Virus record (IMG/VR): IMGVR_UViG_3300027782_000064
Span: 1 to 64,000 of that record
Length of the DNA stretch: 64,000 nt
Direction: 5' to 3' (one strand)
Origin: a virus
Positions 1 through 41,801 of this stretch are shown piece after piece. Every line of letters starts with the position of its first letter. Position 1 is the stretch's first letter. Under the pieces are notes generated by a model. That model was not told where the DNA came from and did no database searches. It saw only the letters and a program-made list of their open reading frames with translations. The translations under genes were made by a program, and so were the position numbers.

Positions 1-160
1 CGCGCTTCTTAGCAACTTTTTTATCAGAGTCACCGCAAATTGGACACGCAAAATTTAATTTACGGCCAGTATCGCCATCAATTTTTTGTTTCTCCGGCAC
101 ATCATGAAACCGCTTACGTAAAAGTGTTTCAATGAATGCTGTTATTTCCTCAATCTTCAT
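1..160 (-). CDS. DNA primase-like protein, N-terminal fragment (runs off the window)
   Basis: Only about 53 codons are visible. The start ATG at 160 overlaps the last 11 bases of the polymerase C-terminal gene, so the two are translationally coupled. The visible part has a basic helical N-terminus followed by a zinc-finger half-site, CPICGDSDKKVAKKR. This resembles the first zinc-binding loop of phage primases of the T4 gp61/DnaG type, where a Cys-x-x-Cys-Gly-Asp/His-Ser element is followed by basic residues. The position directly after a DNA polymerase gene fits a replisome component. The rest of the gene is outside the window, so the primase call rests on the zinc motif and context only. 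Another zinc-ribbon nucleic-acid protein is possible. Confidence 0.5.
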   Translation of the reverse strand, partial: MKIEEITAFIETLLRKRFHDVPEKQKIDGDTGRKLNFACPICGDSDKKVAKKR

Positions 161-1772
161 TAGTTACGGCTACTGCCTTTACTGGTTTGGGTTTAATTGC
201 GGTTTTATAAGCCTTTTCCAAATCATATCCCATTTTAGAATAGTCTTTGCCTGTTTTAACAGCCTTTTCATATTTTTCAGTTTGTAACCATAACCCGCCA
301 TCTGGTGCATTAATTTCAGTCCAGCAATTTTCAGCTAAATAGGCTTCCATAACTTCGTGTGGAATCGCAAATGGATCACTCACTTCAATACCTTTTTTCT
401 TTGCAACTCTATCTCTATATTTAGCAAGTTCGTGTTTTGGAACAATTACGGTAGTTAGGCCATATTTAGAAATAGCTGAAATGTAGGTTGCAAATAATGC
501 TGGCGGTACCTGTAAATCAGGATTACCAATAAATGCTTGACAACTTTCTGGAATTTCACAATATTCTAATGTTTCAGTATTTACTGAATATAATGGGAAT
601 GTTTCGTCTGGCGTAAAATCTTTACTACGACTTCTTGACTTAACTACTTCAATTTTTCTGGTTAATTTTGGAGTTAACTCAGTAAATCCAATTGCAACCA
701 ATAATTTATTGATTGGCTCAATTATTAATCGAAAGAACTGCTGCTCACGATCCATAGGAACTGCAATTTCTTCAGGATAAGAACCTGGAGCATAGGCAAA
801 AATATCAAAGTTATATGCATTTTGAGCTGCATAATAAAATTTAATTTTTGAACCACTGCGAATTAGTGGATACTTTTGATTATTTGTAGATTTAATTAAG
901 TGGTTATGATATGCAACTGCTCTACCGTAAATTGGCATTCCAGTTTCCAAGACTAATGGAACTAGGCTTTTTAAATAGTCTTCATAAACTCTAACTGAAA
1001 AGTTAAATGCAATTTCTTCAACTGGTAAAGCATCGCATTCAGCTTTTAGTGCTGCTAATTTTGGAATAAGATCGCCTTCTAGGTCAATATTATAACCAAT
1101 ATCAAGTAGATAAGAATATAGGGTTTGCAAGTGTTGCCTTGCCCAAATTGGGTATGAGGCTTGAATTGCTTCAAGTCCTTTAATGATTAGCGACTCTTTA
1201 TCTAAAAGCCTTTCATGTTTATTATCTTTATAAGAAACCTTTAAAATATATTTTTTCTTTGCTAACCAAATTCCAGATCTGGATAAATTTTCAAGTTCAA
1301 AGTTTTGGCGATTATCGGTATTAAAATGAACTGCGTATTTTTCAAAGGCTTGTTCAAAATAATTTTTAAGTCGGTTGCGGTTAATTGCCAAACAAAATTC
1401 AAGAGATTGAGTATCGGTTAATTCAAAATCTTCAATTGAGCGTATTGCATAGTCAAAGCATACATAGACTGAATCAGTATCAGTGTATACGGCTGCTTCT
1501 TTCTCAATTTTATTAATTGTTTTTCCAGAAATACCTAATTGCTCATGAAGTTCTGTATCAAGATGCCATTTTTGTTGAAAATAATGGTTAATTGCCTTGA
1601 TTGAAAATTTAATTAGATCTTGGCCCTGTAAAGTAATAGACTGAGCTATTTCGTTATTATGGAAATAGAAGTACTTATTACCAAATGCACCATAAAATGA
1701 GTTAATCAAGATCTTGATTGCATTTTGTTTTAAATCAAGGGACTTTATTTGCTGTTCTAATTGTTTTGACAT
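150..1772 (-). CDS. 43B: Family B DNA polymerase, C-terminal half (gp43B-like)
   Basis: This 540-residue protein carries the second half of a T4 gp43-type polymerase. Motif B (KILINSFYGAFGN, residues 20-32) appears almost at once and motif C (YTDTDSVYV, about 96-104) holds the two catalytic aspartates. A KKKY element near residue 175 matches the KKRY motif of the thumb/palm junction. The exonuclease domain and motif A are absent; they are in a separate gene at 39959-41341, on the same strand but 38 kb upstream in the direction of transcription. The first 16 residues are helical and charged and may pair with the helical tail of the other half. It has its own start, a promoter-like motif at 1806-1813, and a stop overlapping the primase-like gene. 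The two subunits presumably assemble into one polymerase. Confidence 0.92.
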   Translation of the reverse strand: MSKQLEQQIKSLDLKQNAIKILINSFYGAFGNKYFYFHNNEIAQSITLQGQDLIKFSIKAINHYFQQKWHLDTELHEQLGISGKTINKIEKEAAVYTDTDSVYVCFDYAIRSIEDFELTDTQSLEFCLAINRNRLKNYFEQAFEKYAVHFNTDNRQNFELENLSRSGIWLAKKKYILKVSYKDNKHERLLDKESLIIKGLEAIQASYPIWARQHLQTLYSYLLDIGYNIDLEGDLIPKLAALKAECDALPVEEIAFNFSVRVYEDYLKSLVPLVLETGMPIYGRAVAYHNHLIKSTNNQKYPLIRSGSKIKFYYAAQNAYNFDIFAYAPGSYPEEIAVPMDREQQFFRLIIEPINKLLVAIGFTELTPKLTRKIEVVKSRSRSKDFTPDETFPLYSVNTETLEYCEIPESCQAFIGNPDLQVPPALFATYISAISKYGLTTVIVPKHELAKYRDRVAKKKGIEVSDPFAIPHEVMEAYLAENCWTEINAPDGGLWLQTEKYEKAVKTGKDYSKMGYDLEKAYKTAIKPKPVKAVAVTNED

Positions 1773-1805: not shown

Positions 1806-1813
1806 TAATATAC
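1806..1813 (-). promoter_or_regulatory. Candidate early/middle promoter for the polymerase C-terminal gene
   Basis: On the minus strand this reads GTATATTA inside TTAGTATATTAAACC, about 34 bases before the start at 1772. The same TAGTATATTA core occurs before the cassette at 6230 and the thymidylate synthase gene at 31600. It looks like a sigma70-type -10 element. It abuts the opposite-facing late promoter at 1814-1824. Confidence 0.45.
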
Positions 1814-3643: not shown

Positions 3644-3684
3644 GAACCTCTCGATATCGCTATCCGAGAGGTTCTTCGTTTTTA
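3644..3684 (+). terminator. Intrinsic terminator of the 1842-3604 late operon
   Basis: GAACCTCTCG (3644-3653) pairs perfectly with CGAGAGGTTC (3665-3674) around an 11-base loop. It is followed by TTCGTTTTTA on the plus strand. There is no T-run on the minus strand, so it mainly ends plus-strand transcripts. The T-run reaches the 3' end of the minus-strand UvsW gene. Confidence 0.85.
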
Positions 3685-5217
3685 TCGACCTATAAATTTA
3701 GTAAGATCAAATCTGTGTTTGCTTACAATAAATTTCTCTTTAAGATAAATTGTTTCTCTAGCTTTTCCGTGTTTTACAATATAACCATCAAGGTCATCAA
3801 TTAAATCGTATACGGTAACTTCATGTTTTCCAGCAAGTTTACGCATACCTCGACCAATTGCTTGTCTAATTGTAACTTCTGATTTATAGCTCTCAGCAAA
3901 AATAATTTGATTGACACGCTTTAGGTCAATACCTGTAGCAAAAGTACCATAACTTGCAACAATAACTGCACCAACTTCTCGTTCCATTGCCTCTTTATAA
4001 TCAGCGCGGTCCCCGCCGTCAACTCCACCGTCTATATAATATGCATGTTCATTCCACTCTTTTATCTTATCGCAAATTCTTTGGCCGTATTGATCCTTTA
4101 CATTAATGAATAGGATTAAGGTATTACCTCCAAGTTTTTGGACAAATGAAGAAATAAACTCAATTCGGGGTTCATATGAAATAATAAATGCTCGTTCTGC
4201 ATCAAATAATTCCTTACCAGCTTTGCCGGACTCTCTAAGTGCTTTGTATTCTCTAACAAATGGTTCAGTTATTGGATAGTCTAAACTAACCATTTTAATA
4301 TAGACGTTAGGCGAGTGCTCTTGATCAATTAGGAAGCTTGACTTAAGCGTCATGCTTAATGGGCCTAAAAATTCTTGAATCTTAAAAAAATCAGAATATT
4401 GTTCTTCAATTTTAATTGTACCAGAGAGCCCAAGTTTATATTCAACATTAGTTGATGCCAATAAAATATCTCTAATTGAAGCACCTCTTGATGTATGGCA
4501 CTCATCTATACAAATAACTGAAAATCTTTTAAAAAATTCAGGCTCTTTATTTTTTAAACTTTGATATGTAGAAATAACTAGATCGGCTTCTTCAAACTTC
4601 TCTTCAGAATACTTGTTTTGACCGCCAACCGATAGCACGGAATAATTCATTAAGCCAGTATGATAATCCTTTTCAAATTTCTCGGCAGTTTGGCCGACTA
4701 ATGAAATATTGGGAACTACAATTAGGGCTTTTTTATCTTTAGTGATAATACCTTTGCGTTTTAAGAAAGAAAGGTAAATGTATAGGATTAGGGTTTTACC
4801 AGCAGAGGTTGCAAGTTCTTGAGAACAGAATTTATATTTTAAGGCTCGATGAGCTGCTTCAAGCTGGTAATCATATGCAGCAATTGATAAACCATCTAAT
4901 AATACAGATGCAAATTTATCTAATTGGTCTTTTGTAAATGATAGGTTAAGTAGATCCTCTAAGCCGTCAATGTTTATTTCGTAATCGTATTTCTTGCCGA
5001 AATTAATAATTTCCTTCCATAAACCAACACCAATCTTAAAATCCTTATCGATAAATTTATCATAACCATCCCATAATTTTCGTTTGTATAGCTTATTAAA
5101 ATGATAACCTTTTTGTCTCTTCCTAAAATAAAGTTGCAGGTCCTTAAGCTCGCGCTTCATTTCGTGCTTAACTAATTGTAGGTGCTGACGGTCATCAGTT
5201 AATTTAAAAGTTAACAA
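3682..5217 (-). CDS. uvsW: UvsW-like DNA/RNA helicase (SF2)
   Basis: In T4, UvsW unwinds branched DNA and R-loops and switches replication from origin to recombination mode. This 511-residue protein has the SF2 motifs in order: an N-terminal domain of about 110 residues, a Q-like motif (YDYQLEAAHRAL), Walker A variant ATSAGKT, motif Ia VVPNISLVGQTAEKF, Walker B DECH, motif III GLSGT, and the C-terminal motifs VASYGTFATGIDL and AIGRGMRK. T4 UvsW has 587 residues, so this is slightly short. The gene is followed on the minus strand by the terminator region at 3644. The gene upstream (5232-5675) is separated by only 14 bases and probably co-transcribed. Confidence 0.9.
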   Translation of the reverse strand: MLTFKLTDDRQHLQLVKHEMKRELKDLQLYFRKRQKGYHFNKLYKRKLWDGYDKFIDKDFKIGVGLWKEIINFGKKYDYEINIDGLEDLLNLSFTKDQLDKFASVLLDGLSIAAYDYQLEAAHRALKYKFCSQELATSAGKTLILYIYLSFLKRKGIITKDKKALIVVPNISLVGQTAEKFEKDYHTGLMNYSVLSVGGQNKYSEEKFEEADLVISTYQSLKNKEPEFFKRFSVICIDECHTSRGASIRDILLASTNVEYKLGLSGTIKIEEQYSDFFKIQEFLGPLSMTLKSSFLIDQEHSPNVYIKMVSLDYPITEPFVREYKALRESGKAGKELFDAERAFIISYEPRIEFISSFVQKLGGNTLILFINVKDQYGQRICDKIKEWNEHAYYIDGGVDGGDRADYKEAMEREVGAVIVASYGTFATGIDLKRVNQIIFAESYKSEVTIRQAIGRGMRKLAGKHEVTVYDLIDDLDGYIVKHGKARETIYLKEKFIVSKHRFDLTKFIGR

Positions 5218-22572: not shown

Positions 22573-24561
22573 TTGACTACTACTAATATTAAAAGTTTAA
22601 ACCAACCTGCTATCCCAGAGAATTCAGTGTTTATCATTGAGCATCTAAATGAAGCAGTTACGGTAACTACAGAAAACAATGATGTTATTCTTGAAGGTAC
22701 GGCGGCAGTTTTCGGAGTAATGAATGAGAACAATCGTATTTACCAAAAACAAGAATATTTACCTCATTTAACTTACTTAAATGAGAAGATCAAACAGCGT
22801 AGACTATTTGGTGAACTTGATCATCCGCAAAAATTTGATGTTTCATTAGCTAATGTATCCCATGTAATTTTGGGACTTACATATGATGAACCAAGCAATA
22901 GCGTAAAAATTAGACTACAGTTATTAGATACACCATGTGGTAGAATTGCAAAAACTTTAGTTTTAGCAGGTTGTACTACTTCAATTTCTTCAAGAGCTGC
23001 AGGTAATGTTAATAAAGACGGAAATGTTACATTAGCAAAAATATTCACATACGATTTGGTTGCAGAACCAGGTTTTGCACAAGCTGCGCTTGGCCAAGTA
23101 TCTGAAAGTTTGCAAAATAACTATTCTGCAATCTTTGAATCATTAGATTCATTAAGAACTAGCGCAATCACTACCCAATTAACAGATATTTCTGAAAACT
23201 TCGGTTTTGAGGATTCTGTGAAGATTTACCGAATAAATAATCAAGAAATATCAACTAAACAAAATAATACACAGCAAATGGCTAATGAGTTTGTAACAAA
23301 AGAAGAGATGAATCAGTATTCTGAACTGGTTAAAAAGAAATTTTCTTCTCTACAAGAGAATATCTCTAAAAACAATAAAGGTCTTCAAAAGATCAGTGAA
23401 AATGCAACAGAAGGAGAATCTCCAGTTGTTGCTAAAATGGTAGAATACGTTAACTATTTAGCTGGCGAAATGGAGCAATTAGTTGAATACTCTAACTATC
23501 TTTCAACAATGTTAAATCAAGGTATTAATTACACTGAGCATGTTGCAGAGAAAGTTAATACAGTAATCGATTATTCTGACTATTTAGCAGGCACAGTAGA
23601 AAAGAATATTCAATATTCTAGCTACTTAGGAGAAAAACTTAATGAAAACATTAACTATTCTGAATATATTGCTGAAAACGTAGAAAAAACAGTTGAATAT
23701 GCTAACTACATTGCAGAAAATGTAGACAGCAGTATTCAATACACAGAATACGTTGGACAAAGTGCAGAAAAAGGAATTCAATTTTCAAATTACTTAGCTG
23801 AGAATTTAGATGCATCTATTAAATACTCTAACTATTTAGGACAAAACCTTAATGAAGGTATTAGATATTCAGAATACATTGCTGAATCATTAAATGAAAA
23901 AATCACTCCTTCAGCTTTAACTAAAACTCGTTCTTTACTTGGAGAAGTTAAAAAATTAAATGAAGGCGTAGAATTTGAAGTTAATGAAACTTCTTCAGTT
24001 GATGACCTAGTTGGAGCAGTTGATGGACTATTAACTCACATTAAATCAAATTCAGCTAAATCTATTTTGGAAAACAAATATCCATTCTTAAAATTGTTAA
24101 CTGAAGGTCGTAAGCAAGCATTCTATAATTTAGATCAGCCTACTAAATCTGCAATTGTTGAAACAATGCAAGGAGCTATCTACTTTAACGAAGCTGAAGT
24201 AGTTAATATTATGGAAGCAGTTCTTAACAAACAAGTTGAAAACACGCCTAATTATATTAAACTTATGCCAGCTGCATACAAGCAATTATTTGAAAGTATG
24301 ACTGACGGAGAAAGAAATTGGATGGCTTCTCAAGCTAACAACTTCACTTTAAATACTTCATATCAAGTTAAGTCTTTTTGGGATTCTCGCGATTTAAGAG
24401 GAGTTAATGAGAGACTTGCAACTGAAACAATTATAAATAATAATTCTATTAACGAAAACCAAGGTAAAGAAGGTTACGTATCGTTAAACCAAATAAACGA
24501 AAGTCTACGTGGTTATTCTAATAACTACATGGACGCTCTTAAAAGAAGAGCACAAAATTAA
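22573..24561 (+). CDS. 21: Prohead protease (gp21-like) fused to a coiled-coil scaffold domain (gp22-like)
   Basis: Residues 35-190 are a gp21-type maturation protease: GTAAVFGVMNENNRIYQKQE, RRLFGELDHPQ (catalytic His), then LLDTPCGRIAKTLVLAGCTT and SISSRAAG (catalytic Ser). In T4 this serine protease cuts head proteins after Glu in the prohead, and scaffold gp22 is a separate gene. Here the frame continues without a stop into a Gln/Asn/Glu-rich coiled-coil region with eleven 14-residue repeats (290-443) and a helical C-terminal domain. An internal start at 23278 with its own candidate late promoter could yield the scaffold alone. The start is TTG at 22573. The capsid gene follows 17 bases downstream, as expected. 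Confidence 0.85.
   Translation: MTTTNIKSLNQPAIPENSVFIIEHLNEAVTVTTENNDVILEGTAAVFGVMNENNRIYQKQEYLPHLTYLNEKIKQRRLFGELDHPQKFDVSLANVSHVILGLTYDEPSNSVKIRLQLLDTPCGRIAKTLVLAGCTTSISSRAAGNVNKDGNVTLAKIFTYDLVAEPGFAQAALGQVSESLQNNYSAIFESLDSLRTSAITTQLTDISENFGFEDSVKIYRINNQEISTKQNNTQQMANEFVTKEEMNQYSELVKKKFSSLQENISKNNKGLQKISENATEGESPVVAKMVEYVNYLAGEMEQLVEYSNYLSTMLNQGINYTEHVAEKVNTVIDYSDYLAGTVEKNIQYSSYLGEKLNENINYSEYIAENVEKTVEYANYIAENVDSSIQYTEYVGQSAEKGIQFSNYLAENLDASIKYSNYLGQNLNEGIRYSEYIAESLNEKITPSALTKTRSLLGEVKKLNEGVEFEVNETSSVDDLVGAVDGLLTHIKSNSAKSILENKYPFLKLLTEGRKQAFYNLDQPTKSAIVETMQGAIYFNEAEVVNIMEAVLNKQVENTPNYIKLMPAAYKQLFESMTDGERNWMASQANNFTLNTSYQVKSFWDSRDLRGVNERLATETIINNNSINENQGKEGYVSLNQINESLRGYSNNYMDALKRRAQN
23232..23242 (+). 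promoter_or_regulatory. Candidate internal late promoter inside the protease-scaffold gene
   Basis: AATAAATAATC differs by one base from the TATAAATAATC that precedes the same gene. The predicted transcript would begin near 23245, 33 bases before an in-frame ATG at 23278. It lies inside coding sequence, so a chance match is possible. Confidence 0.45.
23278..24561 (+). CDS. Candidate nested scaffold protein made from an internal start
   Basis: ATG at 23278 (residue 236 of the fusion) lies exactly where the protease domain ends and the scaffold begins. It is preceded by an A-rich leader like that of the capsid gene and by a late-promoter-like core at 23232. Starting here gives 427 residues (MANEFVTKEEMNQYSELVKK...), made of the coiled-coil repeats and C-terminal domain only. 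The arrangement would mirror phage lambda, where scaffold Nu3 is made from an internal start within protease gene C. It is inferred from sequence; the protein itself is not shown. Confidence 0.45.
   Translation: MANEFVTKEEMNQYSELVKKKFSSLQENISKNNKGLQKISENATEGESPVVAKMVEYVNYLAGEMEQLVEYSNYLSTMLNQGINYTEHVAEKVNTVIDYSDYLAGTVEKNIQYSSYLGEKLNENINYSEYIAENVEKTVEYANYIAENVDSSIQYTEYVGQSAEKGIQFSNYLAENLDASIKYSNYLGQNLNEGIRYSEYIAESLNEKITPSALTKTRSLLGEVKKLNEGVEFEVNETSSVDDLVGAVDGLLTHIKSNSAKSILENKYPFLKLLTEGRKQAFYNLDQPTKSAIVETMQGAIYFNEAEVVNIMEAVLNKQVENTPNYIKLMPAAYKQLFESMTDGERNWMASQANNFTLNTSYQVKSFWDSRDLRGVNERLATETIINNNSINENQGKEGYVSLNQINESLRGYSNNYMDALKRRAQN
23440..23901 (+). repeat. Eleven 14-residue (42-bp) coding repeats
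   Basis: Units follow the pattern (I/V)xY(S/T/A)xY(L/I/V)(A/G)ExLxxx, for example IQYSSYLGEKLNEN and VEYANYIAENVDSS. Fourteen residues equal two heptads, so the block should form a long regular coiled coil with Tyr at fixed positions. DNA copies have diverged, so the repeat is old. Confidence 0.9.
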
Positions 24562-24578
24562 AAAAACATTTTTAAAAA

Positions 24579-26276
24579 ATGGCAACAAAAATTTTCAAAA
24601 AATTGAACGACGCTTCAATTAAAGAAACTTGGACCCCAATTTTAGAAGGTTATGGTGCAAACGTTACAACTCGCCCTTGGTTAGTTGACTACGCTCACAA
24701 TCATGCTATCTTCGATAATGCAGGTTCAATCAATGAATCAAACACTGGCGTAGCTCCAGGTTTATTCTTACAACAACCAGGTTCTATCAGTTCTATTGGT
24801 GCAATTAGTTCTCCAACAAGTTCTATGACTCCATTCACAGGTGGTGCTAAAAACGGTTACGGTGCTTCTGTATCTGGTTCTGGTGATAAATTCCCAAGCC
24901 TTTTACCAGTTGCTATCCAAGTAGCTGCTAAAACTATTGGTTTTGACCTAGTTGGTGTAGTTCCTATGGATTCTCCAGTAGGTTTCTTACCTTACTTGGA
25001 TTATGTATACCAAGGTGGTAACGTAGACAAGCAATACGAACCATATTTGATTAAAATCACAGGTTTGTTAGAAAACCCAGCTGGTGGTGCTAAATTCACA
25101 GTAGCAACTCTTCCATTTACTGAAGGTTCTAACTATGGTGTTAACGAAAGTAACACTGACTTGATTTTACAATTTGTTGGTAAATCACGTGTTGATGGTT
25201 CTCCAATCTTCAAAGTTATCCTATCTCATGATGGTGGTACTCTTGCTGATTACTTTGCAGTTGACGTTGATATTCAACCAGCTAATGCAACTGACGTTTC
25301 AGGTACTGCGGTAGCAACTTACCGTATTGCTGATAACAAAGTTGAATTAGTTTCTGCTTTAGAAAACCATATTTCTGGTTTTACTTCAGTATCTGACGCT
25401 GATTATGCTACATCTGACTTCAATGGTCCTTTTATGGGAACTACTGGAACTCAAATGGAAGGTATGGCTCGTCAAACTGCAGAAGGTTCTAAATTCCGTC
25501 AAATGGGTCTTCGTATGTTCACTAAGTTCATCGAAGCAAAAGGAGATCAAGTTTCTATTTCAGCAACTGTTGAACAAATCCAAGATCTTAACCGAGTTTG
25601 GAACTTTGACGTAATCTCTATGTTAGAGAACGTAGCAGTTAACGAATTAGCTCAATCTATTAACAAGAAATTAGTTGATAGAGTTCTTAATTTAGGAGCT
25701 ACTCACGCAACTGCAGTTAATGCGGTTGAAGGTGCTGGTATTACTACTTTAGACCTAACTGTTGGAACAATGGGATATGAGAATATTTCAACTCTACAAC
25801 GTCGTGTTGTAACTAAAATTCTTGAAATGGCTAACTTGATTTATCATAGAGGTCGTTTTGGTGCAGGTACATACATCGTTACTAACGGTCGTGTTGCTTC
25901 TGCTTTAGCAGATGTAGCTGGTTATACTTTCTCTCCATTCAATAACGATTTACCATCTACTGCTGGTCAATTATACCCTGCTGGTAAAGTACACGGTTTA
26001 ACAATTTATGTTGATCCTAACTTGAAATTCACCGATAACCGTATTCATATTGGTCGTAAAGGTGCGGATGAAGAACCAGGTGTTAAATTCCTTCCATATA
26101 TCATGGCAGAGTCTCTTCAAACAATTGCAGAGGGAACTTTCTCTCCAAAAATTGGTATGAAATCTCGTTATGCTATCACTGAAGCTGGATGGCACCCAGA
26201 AACTCAATACATTACTTTGAACGTAACAGGTCTAGGTGTATTGACAGGATCTGTAGCACCAGCTGCTTCTTACTAA
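24579..26276 (+). CDS. 23: Major capsid protein (gp23-like)
   Basis: The 565-residue protein aligns in pattern with T4 gp23. The N-terminus WTPILEGYG corresponds to WKPLLEGEG in gp23, and PSLLPVAIQVAAKTIGFDLV followed by GVVPMDSPVGF matches the RRAIPNLIAFDICGVQPMNS region. In T4 the protease removes 65 residues after a hydrophobic-x-Glu site. Here SINE|S ends at Glu53, a likely cut that would leave a mature protein of 512 residues. Codon use is notably cleaner than in neighbours (many GGT, CGT, AAC), as expected for a highly expressed gene. It follows the protease-scaffold gene by 17 bases and is followed by a strong terminator. Confidence 0.93.
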   Translation: MATKIFKKLNDASIKETWTPILEGYGANVTTRPWLVDYAHNHAIFDNAGSINESNTGVAPGLFLQQPGSISSIGAISSPTSSMTPFTGGAKNGYGASVSGSGDKFPSLLPVAIQVAAKTIGFDLVGVVPMDSPVGFLPYLDYVYQGGNVDKQYEPYLIKITGLLENPAGGAKFTVATLPFTEGSNYGVNESNTDLILQFVGKSRVDGSPIFKVILSHDGGTLADYFAVDVDIQPANATDVSGTAVATYRIADNKVELVSALENHISGFTSVSDADYATSDFNGPFMGTTGTQMEGMARQTAEGSKFRQMGLRMFTKFIEAKGDQVSISATVEQIQDLNRVWNFDVISMLENVAVNELAQSINKKLVDRVLNLGATHATAVNAVEGAGITTLDLTVGTMGYENISTLQRRVVTKILEMANLIYHRGRFGAGTYIVTNGRVASALADVAGYTFSPFNNDLPSTAGQLYPAGKVHGLTIYVDPNLKFTDNRIHIGRKGADEEPGVKFLPYIMAESLQTIAEGTFSPKIGMKSRYAITEAGWHPETQYITLNVTGLGVLTGSVAPAASY

Positions 26277-35634: not shown

Positions 35635-37170
35635 TTATATCGAATTTAACAGATCATCATAATCAGCAGATGTTCGATGGGTTTGGATTGGTACTGGCAT
35701 AGCTAGTGCAACATCCATAGGTATTAAATTTTGAGGTAGCGTTGTAGTATTAGTATGAGCAGTTTGATATTGAGTTCTCATTTGATTTTCAAGAGATTGT
35801 GTATCATCGTCATCTGAATAAAATTCGCTAGCTGGATCGTATTCCTCTGTTAATTTAGCAAATTCATAACTCATTCTATACATTTTAAAACTTTCAGTAT
35901 AGCCGCCATCCCTATTTGCAATTAACTTGATCTTCATACGCTTTTCCATAGGTCCACGGATTAATCCAAATAGTGAATCTACTGTATGTACTAGACCAAA
36001 TGATTCTGCAATATCTGACATGCTTAAGTCTTGATCATCAACTGCATCTCTTTTAATTTGAGTTGCTGTAATAATACACCATTCATTTCGGATTGCAACT
36101 GCTCTAAGTTCTTCAGAAATAACCTTAATTTTTTCATAAGTATTACCTTGCTCACGAAGAGGTCGCATTAAGTTAATATAATCAACTACAATTACCGTAA
36201 ATTTAATTCCAGAATTTTGTTGAACTTTTAAAAAGTAATTTTCTACATCAATTGCTGAGGCAGTTCCAGTAGGAAATTCCTTAACTATTAATTGGCCAAG
36301 CTGAGGCATATCTAACTTGAGCTTTTGTATTTTACTAGTAACTTCAGATACTTGATTATTATCTAGCATTGAATCATAGTCCTTAAATGGAATACTTAAT
36401 ATGCTTGAACCAAGTCGCTTCATGTATTTACGATCAGATAATTCAAGAGTTCCGATTCCTACATGACAACCTGCCATAAATGCTCTAGCCGCAATATTTG
36501 AAAGAACCATTGATTTACCTACTTTAGGTCTTCCTTGAAAAACAACTAAGGTTTTTGGATTCCAACCGCCGCCTAATGTTTTATCAAAGAATGGAAAGCC
36601 GGTTGGATTTCCAATTTTTGAAAGTTGAACGTGATCAATTGAAGTAAAAAAGTTTAGACCAGATTCCGCGCTTGTAAATGAAACATTTAATTTGCTATTA
36701 AATTTTTCTCTAACATCATTTGTAATTAATTCAACATTCTCTGGATTAATATCAGTTGTCTTTAAATACGATAACACATCAATTACTGATGCATTTAAGT
36801 TTTTATAGAAAATAAAAGCTTTTGTGTATTTAAAAAGAAACTCATAATTATAACTAGATAAGTCAACCTCAAATAGTGCATTAAATTTTTGTTCTGAAAT
36901 ATCTAGATTTGAAAGATTTGCAATTTGGCGTAATTCATTTCTGGTTGGAATTTTAGAATATTCAATAAAGAATTTTTTAGCTTCACGATATAATCTTTGT
37001 AGAGTATCATCATTGAAGTAATGAGCTTTAATTAAAGGAATAACTTCTCGTTTGTCTAATGATTCGAAGTTTTTAGGTTTAATGATTATATCATTATCAT
37101 CTTCGGTTAGAACAAAGTTAAAAATTATTTTTTCGAGAAGCTCAATATTCTCTTTGAAATCTATCATCAT
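35635..37170 (-). CDS. 41: Replicative DNA helicase gp41 (DnaB-like)
   Basis: 511 residues with the RecA-fold helicase motifs: GGGWNPKTLVVFQGRPKVGK with Walker A GRPKVGKS (213-220), TLELSDRKYMKRL (H1a), VIVVDYINLM (Walker B), and CIITATQIKRDA with DIAESFGLVHTVDSLFG (H3/H4). The N-terminal 150 residues form the helical collar domain. T4 gp41 has 475 residues. It unwinds the fork and works with primase. Here the primase-like gene lies far away at the window start, while UvsX lies just upstream, with a small unknown gene between. Confidence 0.93.
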   Translation of the reverse strand: MMIDFKENIELLEKIIFNFVLTEDDNDIIIKPKNFESLDKREVIPLIKAHYFNDDTLQRLYREAKKFFIEYSKIPTRNELRQIANLSNLDISEQKFNALFEVDLSSYNYEFLFKYTKAFIFYKNLNASVIDVLSYLKTTDINPENVELITNDVREKFNSKLNVSFTSAESGLNFFTSIDHVQLSKIGNPTGFPFFDKTLGGGWNPKTLVVFQGRPKVGKSMVLSNIAARAFMAGCHVGIGTLELSDRKYMKRLGSSILSIPFKDYDSMLDNNQVSEVTSKIQKLKLDMPQLGQLIVKEFPTGTASAIDVENYFLKVQQNSGIKFTVIVVDYINLMRPLREQGNTYEKIKVISEELRAVAIRNEWCIITATQIKRDAVDDQDLSMSDIAESFGLVHTVDSLFGLIRGPMEKRMKIKLIANRDGGYTESFKMYRMSYEFAKLTEEYDPASEFYSDDDDTQSLENQMRTQYQTAHTNTTTLPQNLIPMDVALAMPVPIQTHRTSADYDDLLNSI

Positions 37171-37175
37171 ATTTT

Positions 37176-37514
37176 TTAGTTCGAAATTATGTAAAATTTT
37201 AAAAATTCAGATTGGTCAATTATTATAAATTCGCCTTTCTTAATTAGAATATTGTCTTCTATTAAGTCTTTCATTAATAGTTTTAATTTTTCTAAAAATT
37301 CAGCCGTTAATTTATCTCCAAACACATATTTTAAAGTTTTTGTTGAAAATTTAATATCTTCTGGGTCAAACTCTTTAGACTTGACTTGGGTAACTCTTAC
37401 AATATACGACACAATATCAAATATAAAGTCTTGCCTAGTTGGATAGCTAGGCAAGACAATATGCGACTCTAGTAAGTATTTAAGCGGAATATTTGGTTGT
37501 AATTTAAAGATCAT
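37176..37514 (-). CDS. Unknown 112-residue protein between UvsX and gp41
   Basis: Alpha/beta protein with a possible winged-helix C-terminus (LEKLKLLMKDLIEDNILIKK, then GEFIIID). The start overlaps the end of the UvsX gene by 11 bases and the stop lies 5 bases before gp41, so translation is coupled to both. A helicase loader (T4 gp59 role) or a DNA-binding accessory would fit the position, but I see no clear similarity to gp59. Confidence 0.65.
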   Translation of the reverse strand: MIFKLQPNIPLKYLLESHIVLPSYPTRQDFIFDIVSYIVRVTQVKSKEFDPEDIKFSTKTLKYVFGDKLTAEFLEKLKLLMKDLIEDNILIKKGEFIIIDQSEFLKFYIISN

Positions 37515-38694
37515 TGTCAGACTCAGTTAAATCTTCTAATTCATCTATTTCCATTTCATCTATTCCATCTTGAGTTTCAGGAAATTTAAACTTGGGTTTA
37601 ATTGTGGTCTCATCTAGTTGAGTTAGCACTTCATGAGTAAATAATCTATCTGAGAAAAATTCTTTAACTGGAACTGCATCGCCATTGTGTTTGATAATAT
37701 AGGTTTTACCAAGTTTTTTTGGTAGAAAATAGAAAGTCTCTCCAGCCACTTCAAATTTTGAACATAATTCTGATTCGTCTGGTTTTAGTTTAGAGAATTC
37801 CTTTTCAGTTAATTTATTACCTCTACCAACTCCACATGTTTCCCAACTAACATATTGTTCAAGGCCTACGAATTGATTCATACCTTTATGGAATGAAATA
37901 TGGAATTCAATATCAATTGGTCGAGCTAAACGATTCTTTTTAGTTTTAGAGCGAACAATAATTCCAGTAGTGGTTTTAGCTTCATCTCTAAGAGTTCCTT
38001 TACTTAACATCAAGATAATTGATGCAGAGAATTCTGGACCTCCACCGCCTGACATACCCTTTGGAGTATATTGATCCATTGAGGCATATGTGTGGTTTGT
38101 AAAAATAAATGGAACTTTATAATTTGAAAGATCCAAAGTTAATGATTTGAATAGTGACCTCATTTCTTTTGCACGAAGTCCCATATCTGCAGCATTTTTA
38201 CCTGCATCCATATCACGCTGACTTTTATCAGTATCAAGCATTCCTACTGAATCTACAAATAGTGCAATCTTAAGTCCTGGATTCTCCTTGATTGTGTCAA
38301 TTAGATCGTGGACATAAAATTTAACCTCACTAATAAGACCCATACGTAAATACTTTAATTTACTTAGATCTACTCCAAATTTAACATAGTCACTTGAATC
38401 AATTGCACCCTCGGTGTCAATATAAATTACCATGTAATCCATTTTTTGTAATTCACGAACTGCATTTAAACATAGGAAAGTTTTACCTGAGCCAGAGTCT
38501 CCAGCAATTCCAATACTTCGAGTATTAGGATAACCTCCAAATAACGAGCCTGACATTTGTGCATTTAGTAAGTAATTTCCAGTTGGAATGTACTCTTCAA
38601 TATCAGAGAACCCTCTGATTTCAATTTTTGATTTGACTTTTTTCTCGAGCAAGTCGTTAAACTTGGCGAATGCGTCCATTGTTGATTTTGCCAT
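37504..38694 (-). CDS. uvsX: UvsX recombinase (RecA-like)
   Basis: 396 residues, nearly the T4 UvsX length (391). Walker A is GDSGSGKTF (65-73) and the Walker B region VIYIDTEGAID (89-99). KIALFVDSVGML and FTNHTYASMDQYTPKGMSGG (L2-loop region) follow. The C-terminus is acidic, as in UvsX, and ends LEDLTESDNDL. It catalyses strand invasion for recombination-dependent replication with gp32 and UvsY. An A/T-rich leader with a TTTTAGTAT motif precedes it (38735-38745 region). Confidence 0.95.
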   Translation of the reverse strand: MAKSTMDAFAKFNDLLEKKVKSKIEIRGFSDIEEYIPTGNYLLNAQMSGSLFGGYPNTRSIGIAGDSGSGKTFLCLNAVRELQKMDYMVIYIDTEGAIDSSDYVKFGVDLSKLKYLRMGLISEVKFYVHDLIDTIKENPGLKIALFVDSVGMLDTDKSQRDMDAGKNAADMGLRAKEMRSLFKSLTLDLSNYKVPFIFTNHTYASMDQYTPKGMSGGGGPEFSASIILMLSKGTLRDEAKTTTGIIVRSKTKKNRLARPIDIEFHISFHKGMNQFVGLEQYVSWETCGVGRGNKLTEKEFSKLKPDESELCSKFEVAGETFYFLPKKLGKTYIIKHNGDAVPVKEFFSDRLFTHEVLTQLDETTIKPKFKFPETQDGIDEMEIDELEDLTESDNDL

Positions 38695-39958: not shown

Positions 39959-41341
39959 TTAAGCCACTTTTTCACTTGACAATTGTTCTTCTAATTTTTT
40001 CATTTGATTCTTTGTATCTACTCGACCATTATATAATTTAGTAAGAATTGTTCGAGCAGCTGAATCCATTTTATTTGTGAAGACTGTATCGTTTTTTGTT
40101 AATATTTGATCAGGCTGTAGTTCAATACCAGGTTTAATTTTTCCCAAATACGCATCTGGAGAAATATTAAATTGAATCTGAATGTTTGGATACATTGAGG
40201 CAAAGTCAAAACATGAAACATACTTGTAATAGCCAGGTTCAGGTTTTGCAACATACGCTCCATCATAAGTTGCATCTTCTTCTAGGTCTCTTCGATCATT
40301 TGCCATATAACGGCCTCTATCTAAAAACTCACGACACATTAATGATTCAGTAATGAATACTGCTGAGAATACTTTTGAAACATCAACCTTTGCAAATTTT
40401 GAAATTGCAAATGCAACATCAAGTAGTCCAAGTTTATCTTCAATTAGTTTAATAAGAATTGTATCAATAATATTATATTTGATAAAGTTTTCAATATCTT
40501 GTTGGGCTTCCATCATAGTTGCATACTCACTATGAAGTTTAGTTGTTCCTAATACTAGGTTAGCAATATAATCTAATTTATAATTTTCAACTACTTTATA
40601 GGGTTTAGTATTCATAAATACTTCCATGTAATCTAAAAGACCTAAATGAATTGGCATTTTTGATTTACCGATTAAGGTTTTAGAAGGCATTGTTTTCATT
40701 GGATCAATATCCAATTTTTTACAACGATTAATTAGATAAATCCAGTCAAATCCAATAACATTCCAACCGGTTAAGAATGGAATTTTTGGAAGAACTTTAT
40801 GAAAGAAGGTTTTCATTAACTCTTCTTCAGTTTCAAAGAAAAGATATTTAAGAGTAAACGTTTGACCGTGAGCTTTAAAATATTCATTCACTTCATCTTG
40901 CATTTGTAAAATTGGAGACTCTTCCAATTTCTTCATGGTTGACATTACAAAACAAACATTGTCCTCATTAACAAAAGTAATTAAATTAACTGGCATTGCT
41001 GCTTTTGCTGGATCAGGAAACTCTTGTGAAGTTAACTGAATCTCAATATCTAAATAATATTTTTTTGGACTGTCATCTGAATAAATTGAGGCAAGCTCAG
41101 TTTCATCTAATCTGGTTTGGGTTAATTCCTCAAGTCTAAATTTACTTAACCATTTACCTTGAACTTTTTTTAGGAACTTTCCATCCCAATTTCGGTGTTC
41201 AGTTGGAGTTGGAGTTAAGTTCCAATTATAAAGATCATGTGGAAGTATTGGCTTTTTCATAAAGCCGATTGTACCATCCGGTTTATAATAAGAAATAACT
41301 AATGTTGAGTCTTCTGTGTGAAATTCTGTGCTTACAATCAT
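39959..41341 (-). CDS. 43A: Family B DNA polymerase, N-terminal half (gp43A-like)
   Basis: 460 residues with a 3'-5' exonuclease domain and the first polymerase motif. Exo I is YLDIEI (Asp98, Glu100), Exo II GWNVIGFDWIYL (Asp199), Exo III YNIIDTILI (Tyr289, Asp293), and motif A is DFASMYPNIQIQF (Asp379). The protein then stops after LYNGRVDTKNQMKKLEEQLS, in the fingers; motifs B and C are in the gene at 150-1772. I chose Met at 41341 over the longer frame from 41401 because it avoids overlap with the dUTPase gene and gives a gp43-like N-terminus. A GTATATTA motif (41350-41357) lies just upstream, but is very close to the start. Confidence 0.92.
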   Translation of the reverse strand: MIVSTEFHTEDSTLVISYYKPDGTIGFMKKPILPHDLYNWNLTPTPTEHRNWDGKFLKKVQGKWLSKFRLEELTQTRLDETELASIYSDDSPKKYYLDIEIQLTSQEFPDPAKAAMPVNLITFVNEDNVCFVMSTMKKLEESPILQMQDEVNEYFKAHGQTFTLKYLFFETEEELMKTFFHKVLPKIPFLTGWNVIGFDWIYLINRCKKLDIDPMKTMPSKTLIGKSKMPIHLGLLDYMEVFMNTKPYKVVENYKLDYIANLVLGTTKLHSEYATMMEAQQDIENFIKYNIIDTILIKLIEDKLGLLDVAFAISKFAKVDVSKVFSAVFITESLMCREFLDRGRYMANDRRDLEEDATYDGAYVAKPEPGYYKYVSCFDFASMYPNIQIQFNISPDAYLGKIKPGIELQPDQILTKNDTVFTNKMDSAARTILTKLYNGRVDTKNQMKKLEEQLSSEKVA

Positions 41342-41363
41342 ATTTGTTCTAATATACCAAAAA

Positions 41364-41801
41364 TTAATGAGTTCCTGTTGAACCAAATCCGCCTTCTCCA
41401 CGCTCAGTCATCTCAGAATAAAGCTCTTCAAGTGGAACGTCCTCAATTATATCATAAAATACTGGAACAAGTACAAACTGGATTAATTTTTGACCCGGAG
41501 TTATGAGTTGGGCCTCGGTTCCAACATTAATCACATGGATATGAATTTCGCCTTGATAATCTTCATCACAGACTTCAGCCCCTTTAATTAATAACTGTTT
41601 GGTTGCAACGCCTGACTTGTTAAAGGCAGTTAACATATACCCAGTAGGAATATCGGCTTTAATACCAGTTGGAATTAGGGCAGAGTTCCCAGGAAGTAAT
41701 GTTAGTTCCAAATAATCGTTTGGAACAAAAAAATCTATACCTGCAGATTTAGAAGTTCCTCTAGTTGGGATCTTAACGTCCCGAATTCTTGAAATTTTCA
41801 T
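41364..41801 (-). CDS. dut: dUTPase (trimeric type)
   Basis: Hydrolyses dUTP to dUMP, keeping uracil out of DNA and feeding thymidylate synthase. All five motifs are present in 145 residues: SAGIDFFVP (1), NKSGVATK (2, usually PRSG), GAEVCDEDYQGEIHIHVIN (3, with the catalytic Asp), KLIQFVLVPV (4) and RGEGGFGSTG (5). It is encoded just before the polymerase N-terminal half, on the same strand. The plus-strand sheath promoters lie upstream on the other strand. Confidence 0.95.
   Translation of the reverse strand: MKISRIRDVKIPTRGTSKSAGIDFFVPNDYLELTLLPGNSALIPTGIKADIPTGYMLTAFNKSGVATKQLLIKGAEVCDEDYQGEIHIHVINVGTEAQLITPGQKLIQFVLVPVFYDIIEDVPLEELYSEMTERGEGGFGSTGTH

Follow-up and report, generated by a model that had tools for sequence, protein, structure and literature searches.

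Can one replicative DNA polymerase be made from two genes that lie 38 kb apart? The question is raised by the IMG/VR virus record IMGVR_UViG_3300027782_000064 (87,004 bases), of which positions 1 to 64,000 were analysed here; this whole stretch of 64,000 bases is called the window. It carries a family B DNA polymerase (PolB) in two pieces, an N-terminal one (N half) and a C-terminal one (C half). I put the probability at roughly 85% that the replicative polymerase of this virus is a non-covalent heterodimer encoded by the two unlinked genes.

Two half genes and their active-site residues

The N half (460 amino acids) is encoded at 39959..41341 on the minus strand and consists of the N-terminal and 3'-5' exonuclease domains, motif A, and the first fingers helix with R440 and K444. 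The C half (540 amino acids), at 150..1772 on the same strand, consists of the second fingers helix with motif B (K20, N24, Y27), motif C (D98, D100), the KKxY motif, the thumb, and a C-terminal extension. The two genes are 38,187 bases apart. Both are open and each has its own start and stop, the N-half gene being the ATG-started portion of a 480-codon open reading frame (ORF) that begins with GTG. The Pfam profile DNA_pol_B matches the N half with its positions 16-145 (E 4.8e-15) and the C half with its positions 131-239 (E 5.6e-15), so that the halves are two parts of one profile; PF03104 and PF00136 were matched by the halves in the Pfam scan. In PHROGs, the N half belongs to phrog_2062 (E 9.8e-73) and the C half to phrog_1918 (E 3e-61), both half-length families called DNA polymerase, while the full-length phrog_262 matches the N half with its first part and the C half with its second part. 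The earlier note on this DNA had reported these two ORFs at these coordinates as a polymerase split in the fingers, on one strand and 38 kb apart, with a separate start and stop for each half, and all of this was borne out. It had also named a full-length polymerase elsewhere as one observation that would speak against the split. No further DNA_pol_B match was found in the 87,004-base record (Pfam, E <= 0.001), and no full-length PolB with the Pfam profile in a closed relative described below. Thus, the single polypeptide of the gp43 type is replaced by two genes, in the window's record as in all 23 relatives holding both halves.

Are the halves equipped for catalysis? The exonuclease motifs DIE, N..D, and Y..D and the motifs A (DxxSxYP), B (KxxxNSxYG), C (DTD), and KKxY are present. 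The N half has the exonuclease residues D98, E100, N194, D199, Y289, and D293, and the polymerase residues D379 and Y384 (motif A) and R440 (fingers). The C half has K20, N24, Y27, and G28 (motif B), D98-T99-D100 (motif C), and K172-K173-Y175. These key residues are invariant in 15 of 15 aligned N-half proteins and 11 of 11 aligned C-half proteins, some of which are just 20-36% identical to the window proteins, and again in all closer relatives (22/22 and 23/23). The claim that the catalytic residues are kept therefore holds for every aligned row; K444, the counterpart of RB69 K486, varies among the rows. By number on the RB69 sequence, where the counterparts were verified, the metal ligands are D379 of the N half (RB69 D411) and D98 and D100 of the C half (RB69 D621 and D623). 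R440 and K444 of the N half correspond to RB69 R482 and K486, and K20 and N24 of the C half to RB69 K560 and N564, residues that presumably contact the incoming deoxynucleoside triphosphate (dNTP).

The N half has 20 residues after R440 and the C half has 19 before K20. Since this sum of 39 compares with 35 between the corresponding residues in the fused polymerase of cyanophage Syn1, the fingers tip was cut, not lost. The ends are uniform among the relatives: all 149 non-fused N ORFs that reach the profile end (many of them near-copies) stop 1-9 residues beyond it, and an ATG lies near the aligned start in 34 of 34 C halves. The part of the N half from motif A to the fingers is under purifying selection, with a nonsynonymous divergence (dN) of 0.09-0.15 and a synonymous divergence (dS) above 1 against records G005, G015, and G004.

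Each half was folded singly, one protein at a time, and then matched to RB69 gp43. The predicted fold of the N half has a predicted local distance difference test score (pLDDT) of 83.4 and a predicted template modelling score (pTM) of 0.80. Its exonuclease domain is confident alone, its low-confidence stretch is residues 350-395 around motif A, and its last helix (428-459) is the fingers helix. Residues 1-460 align with RB69 gp43 4-502 (Z 29.5, root-mean-square deviation (rmsd) 4.3, 361 residues aligned). The C half is predicted poorly at residues 8-48 around motif B. Its residues 10-372 align with RB69 466-894 (Z 21.6, rmsd 4.6, 321 aligned), or residues 1-372 with 545-894 (Z 21.6, rmsd 7.2, 327 aligned), the placement depending on the row. 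Structure alignment was used because plain MAFFT placed the N tails on RB69 at scattered positions. In these models, the folds of the two halves complement each other on RB69 gp43, and the fingers tip alone is missing. The weak stretches near the break are those that would need the partner chain, which supports an obligate complex, short of proof. Two features of the models weigh against such a complex: the C half has further low-confidence stretches distant from the break, mostly toward its C end, and its overall confidence when folded alone is modest (pLDDT 72.3, pTM 0.56).

The split in relatives and in named phages

Is the split a peculiarity of one assembly? Among the first 18 related IMG/VR records, 12 have both halves and six have one; among a further 20, 11 have both and nine have one. 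With the window's record and contig L284 added to these 23 of 38, there are 25 records in which the halves lie on the same strand, with the N half upstream, 11.7-67.0 kb apart (order and spacing were counted across contig ends for G006 and G007, and spacing was taken between Pfam match ends for G023, G026-G038, and L284). In 184 loci from viral contigs, an N ORF was found in 104 and a C ORF in 80, and both in one ORF or locus in none; these loci include overlapping fetches of one contig, and the distinct proteins number 62 N halves (from 102 whose stop codon falls within the locus) and 52 C halves. Four records of about 270-271 kb are permutations of one genome, because in G005, G006, and G008 the sequence runs on without a gap from the end of G007 to its start (100% identity). 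The gap between the halves is 43,177 bases in G005 and G008 and 43,178 in G006, and in this closed genome of about 271 kb the two halves are the only PolB pieces found with Pfam. L284 (CAIWBA010000291.1) is a 254 kb contig binned with a metagenome-assembled genome (MAG) of an uncultured Bacteroidetes bacterium, and its halves are 37.9 kb apart. The window comes from a metagenomic record of 87 kb, and it might be suspected that the real phage has an intact gene, which was broken up by an assembly error or by a single chance rearrangement. Misassembly is excluded in practice, and I rejected it, since the same split with the same ends recurs in numerous assemblies: the neighbours are conserved within the window's group, and the cases include a closed genome, a 254 kb contig of another data set, and the records of phages PAU, PTm1, pT24, and MA9V-2. 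The chance that either event explains the separation is negligible. In addition, L289 (CADBGE010000001.1), a 400 kb phage-like contig binned as an Erysipelotrichaceae MAG, has the halves about 178 kb apart on opposite strands.

Comparison of split points in related genomes, which the earlier note had proposed as a check, revealed that the same cut recurs across the IMG/VR relatives and named phages. Of 12 phage records, 10 are split, AG-345-P14 and Mosig being fused; of seven others, three are split (PTm1, pT24, and Aeromonas phage 25) and four are fused (MaF61, T4, RB69, and Syn1). The cut of the window is shared by PAU, PTm1, pT24, MA9V-2, Lak, and huge phages of 462-735 kb, so that giant phages of the gut are among the relatives with this cut. 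Thus, the split reported for the window is real, but that description was too narrow, as the trait is common to a deep lineage of jumbo and mega phages.

The wide separation is not general. PAU gp105/gp110, PTm1 ORF236/239/241, pT24 gp165/gp168, and the MA9V-2 pairs belong to the same clade and have the same break as the window. Unlike the window's halves, which are indeed 38 kb apart, they lie close together on one strand (1.2 kb in pT24, 2.0 kb in PTm1, 2.4 kb in PAU, and 3.5 kb in MA9V-2) and are annotated as separate DNA polymerase genes. Approximate gaps in other records, from match or gene positions, are 10 kb in LR756500, 101 kb in LR745206, 132 kb in LR756502, 221 kb in Lak-A2, and 280 kb in LR756504. 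In LR756501 the halves are 618 kb apart in the linear record and about 116 kb apart if the ends join, and this record was excluded from the distance range, which is 1.2 kb to about 280 kb. The halves are on opposite strands in LR745206, LR756502, LR756504, LR756501, Lak-A2, and Lak-C1, while Lak-B2 has both on the same strand, separated by about 7 kb, the C parts being upstream. These varied spacings and strands indicate that linkage is not needed and that the genes have been reshuffled even within Lak (three records). In Chryseobacterium phage MA9V-2, a TnpB-family gene lies between the polymerase halves (L083 5525-8826); it is a possible mobile cause of the separation.

One enzyme from two chains

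How would the two products work? With the break at the fingers tip, the exonuclease, motif A, and the outgoing fingers helix belong to the N chain, while motif C, the thumb, and the returning fingers helix, which bears motif B, belong to the C chain. It is proposed that they meet without a new peptide bond, the two helices pairing as an antiparallel hairpin, and that the palm sheet is completed by strands of both chains. The exonuclease site lies entirely on the N chain. Because the metal ligands and the dNTP contacts are divided between the chains, neither should polymerise alone, and assembly in trans, which the earlier note had supposed, would follow from this geometry.

Could the halves be joined after expression instead, by protein trans-splicing through a split intein or by mRNA trans-splicing, to give one polypeptide? 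Split inteins do interrupt the polymerase elsewhere in the lineage, at motif C in Lak-A2, PTm1, and LR756500. However, neither window half has a match to Intein_splicing (Pfam, E <= 0.01), and no intein was seen by eye at the ends of the halves in relatives. The same scan detects Intein_splicing in pieces of Lak-A2 and PTm1 (below the Pfam cut-off) and of LR756500 (above it). The window has no Rfam match at the gathering cut-offs, and hence none to an RNA intron, and the N ORFs stop and the C halves start at uniform positions. An intein at the fingers break was therefore rejected, the motif C inteins marking a second, separate break, and joining by either route is very improbable. Alternatively, the pair might be no replicase at all, the N half being a free exonuclease and the C half a relic or an accessory protein, while the genome is copied by another polymerase. 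In favour of this, the N half has a complete exonuclease site, in a domain that is predicted to fold confidently alone; the phage might also use a host enzyme. Against this, motif A, R440, and the motif B and C residues are invariant in all aligned rows although they would be useless to a nuclease, and the part bearing motif A is under purifying selection. PolA (PF00476) was matched in none of 13 records and the PolIII alpha family (PF07733) in none above the cut-off (one below it), G000 and some others of these records being fragments. I regard this alternative as very unlikely, too. Taken with the divided active site, the lack of an intein, of an Rfam intron in the window, and of PolA and above-cut-off PolIII matches makes the non-covalent heterodimer the simplest reading.

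The PolIII alpha match below the cut-off lies in record G016 (G016:C1:153419-153691, E 0.008), about 7 kb after the N half. It may relate to the minimal split PolIII alpha which a passage of a jumbo-phage survey (PMC7824862) describes in the group 2.2 phages, including Lak and PTm1; that enzyme is likewise encoded by two distant genes but belongs to another polymerase family. The passages of the survey that use the word 'split' do not concern the family B enzyme.

Several split PolB enzymes are known. In Aeromonas phages 25 and 44RR, a T4-type PolB is cut at the fingers tip into gp43A and gp43B (PMC2988022, NC_008208), as in the window. The two proteins of phage 25 co-purify and are active as a polymerase (PMC2988022), which is a precedent for the heterodimer. 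The gp43A protein ends at about RB69 residue 512 (by MAFFT sequence alignment), as compared with 502 for the window's N half (by structure). In Aeromonas phages with this split the two parts adjoin, with a homing endonuclease gene or an untranslated stretch in between. The phage 25 genes are 851 bases apart around a homing endonuclease gene, unlike the halves of the window's group, which are 12-67 kb apart with stable neighbours each. The likeness to the Aeromonas pair, which the earlier note had pointed out, applies to the cut site but not to a shared origin, since the Aeromonas split is nested among Straboviridae in trees and arose separately from that of the window's lineage. In archaea, the PolB3 of Methanobacteriales is also encoded by two genes, a split attributed to erratic intein excision, and the PolB of Nanoarchaeum equitans is encoded by two non-adjacent genes, as here, but with intein halves and possible trans-splicing, unlike the window (PMC4104785). 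Pseudomonas phage MIJ3, a jumbo phage, has a split PolB too; unlike in the window, its ORFs are neighbours, with an HNH endonuclease between them and a putative split intein (PMC6892783). The DNA polymerase genes of Jug phages (PMC12363816) and OM43 phages (PMC10580990) were also reported to be split, but by intervening endonuclease sequences or one small ORF, and are not unlinked as in the window.

The papers on Lak phages, huge phages, and moraphages (PMC6784885, PMC8346664, PMC11165621, PMC7162821, PMC12619734) do not use the word 'split' in their main texts, nor does a 2026 review (PMC13282480). No published description of an old, unlinked, intein-free split was found in the literature search, with supplements and subscription papers lying outside it. 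Split PolB as such is already known; the new element is that a lineage shares an old split at the fingers tip which involves no intein and leaves the genes unlinked. By their description in PMC12619734, the 'moraphages' resemble the window's group, with two DNA polymerase VOGs and predicted Bacteroidota hosts. Table 2 of that paper lists two DNA-directed DNA polymerase VOGs, VOG00275 and VOG00710, with 27 and 25 occurrences; these may be the two halves, not recognised as such.

Few enzymes are as constrained as replicases, and this lineage occurs in many metagenomes. A two-chain replicase cut between its nucleotide-holding residues makes it testable whether the active site holds without a covalent link, and why such a state is kept. 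The halves come to be listed as separate polymerases in family searches, as the two PHROGs families illustrate, and they offer natural split points for split-polymerase tools. Direct tests seem feasible, given that hosts are named for the phage records pT24, PTm1, PAU, and MA9V.

Origin of the split and gene neighbourhoods

Did the split arise once? In the joint trees, the split rows and the fused MaF61 form one group against the T4 and cyanophage types (100/100), and with L285 added the group has 25 split and two fused rows (100/100). L285 is a 3.9 kb contig of an uncultured bacterium MAG with a fused polymerase. Aeromonas phage 25 (N part only) is nested among the fused Straboviridae (100/99). 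LR756500 and Aeromonas phage 25 have no C part in the joint trees and are absent from the separate N and C trees; Lak and PTm1 are represented by one C piece each, and nine near-duplicate rows were thinned in the tree with L285. The separate N and C trees are concordant in the main groups, with a path-length correlation of 0.97 for 28 split rows.

I propose one origin of the split, or a small number of them, in an ancestor of a lineage of large T4-type phages, several of which have Bacteroidota hosts, and a single origin is possible. Two results speak against a single origin: the split clade has the fused MaF61 and L285 inside it or at its base, and a branch with just the split rows on one side occurs in only 2% and 0% of 200 bootstrap trees. 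Also unfavourable to the proposal, the N and C trees disagree on the positions of the LR megaphages, Lak, and G015/G016. Independent splits, each at the same fingers tip, or one split followed by re-fusions, would account for the fused members, and the separate Aeromonas split shows that the site tolerates breaks. On the other hand, the starred branches force one change alone for the split group, and constraining the split rows together is not rejected by the approximately unbiased (AU) test (p-AU 0.285; 0.156 with L285). When the best tree is rooted on the T4/cyanophage side, the first lineage to branch off is L285, outside the split rows, which would date the split after L285; the deep forks of this tree have bootstraps of 23-57, and MaF61 lies inside on a long branch. 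Repeated splitting or re-fusion is thus a serious but less favoured explanation. The fused polymerase of L285 (161-2686, 841 amino acids) is 33% identical to the N half and is directly followed by a RecA-family gene; this is possibly the pre-split arrangement. A viral-contig scan with L285 for more fused near relatives gave 12 candidates, none of which was a relative.

Each half has its own neighbours, as had been claimed for the window. The C half is followed by a DNA primase gene (start at 1..160, minus strand), whose ATG overlaps the end of the C half and which is complete (373 amino acids) in locus L008; it was identified by phrog_47 (PHROGs, E 6.7e-32) and DNA primase chains in PDB (E 4.8e-6), with no Pfam match. 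A UvsW-type helicase gene (3682..5217, minus strand) lies 1.9 kb upstream of the C half. The N half is immediately preceded by a dUTPase gene (41364..41801, minus strand, PF00692), and downstream of it are a UvsX/RecA gene (37504..38694, minus strand) and a DnaB-type replicative helicase gene (35635..37170, minus strand, PF03796). Late structural genes on the opposite strand had also been noted between the halves, and they are there: the prohead protease and the gp23 major capsid protein (22573..26276, plus strand) are among the plus-strand late genes that share this interval with minus-strand recombination and helicase genes.

Is this arrangement kept? In 16 C-half loci of the window's group, the primase gene overlaps the C half or follows it within 232 bases, and in 15 of them (all except the short locus L201) the UvsW gene ends 1.7-3.5 kb upstream. 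On the side of the N half, 13 loci of the group have UvsX 1.0-1.8 kb downstream, followed by DnaB, with a sheath gene on the opposite strand; the dUTPase gene is within 0.6 kb upstream in the 11 loci where it was matched, the other loci having no match. Rows outside the window's group mostly gave no match in this neighbour test, partly because of short loci. Among fused polymerases, a uvsX/RecA gene comes directly after gp43, or past one small gene, in S13, RB49, Syn1, and L285, while other genes follow it in T4, RB69, JS98, MaF61, and C48C1. From the former four it may be cautiously inferred that the N half probably retained the old gp43 site beside uvsX, and that the C half moved, in the window's group to a place before the primase gene.

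A far-reaching extension, which I consider doubtful, is that in a whole lineage of jumbo and mega phages (genomes up to 735 kb) an obligate two-gene heterodimer took the place of the one-chain replicase, with a composite active site so old that its genes came to lie as much as about 280 kb from each other and on opposite strands. On this reading, because the exonuclease chain can be made alone and the halves have different partners in the window's group (uvsX/dnaB as against primase), the level of the C half could be a second key for the timing and amount of replication, and the free N half could act as a recombination nuclease.

A promoter-like motif had been claimed for each half. The sequence GTATATTA does occur before both, at 1806..1813 (minus strand, 34-41 nt before the C half) and 41350..41357 (minus strand, 9-16 nt before the N half), but both are weak candidates. 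There are 11 copies in the window, several just upstream of genes, against 4.62 expected, and 2 of 100 shuffles reach this number; a promoter role is thus weakly supported. No promoter difference between the halves is claimed: TATAA stands 4-25 nt before the start in 9 of 22 C halves and in 2 of 20 N halves, and at this distance before 95 of 2130 ATGs of the window (the window's two starts were excluded, the rows are related, and the N rows L187, L188, L190, and L192 were set at a non-ATG codon).

I found a second break of the C half, at motif C, in L105/L115 (Lak-A2), L104/L116 (Lak-B2), L103/L114 (Lak-C1), L117 11522-14328 (PTm1), and L099 (LR756500). Intein_splicing is at the facing ends in Lak-A2 and PTm1 and in the N-side piece in LR756500, and was recognised by eye in Lak-B2 and Lak-C1; the PTm1 record is annotated with an intein-containing split DNA polymerase precursor. 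Judging from the sequences, these phages seem to need three genes and protein trans-splicing for one polymerase. The C half is also in two ORFs in G034:C1:47459-48872 and G038:C1:27823-30532, perhaps by the same motif C break.

The C-terminal extension of the window's C half (residues 373-540; 150..656, minus strand) matched no PHROGs family (scan of window positions 153-653), and no clamp-binding tail like that at the end of gp43 was recognised in it by eye. Its first part is conserved across the window's group, and the remainder in nearer relatives alone.
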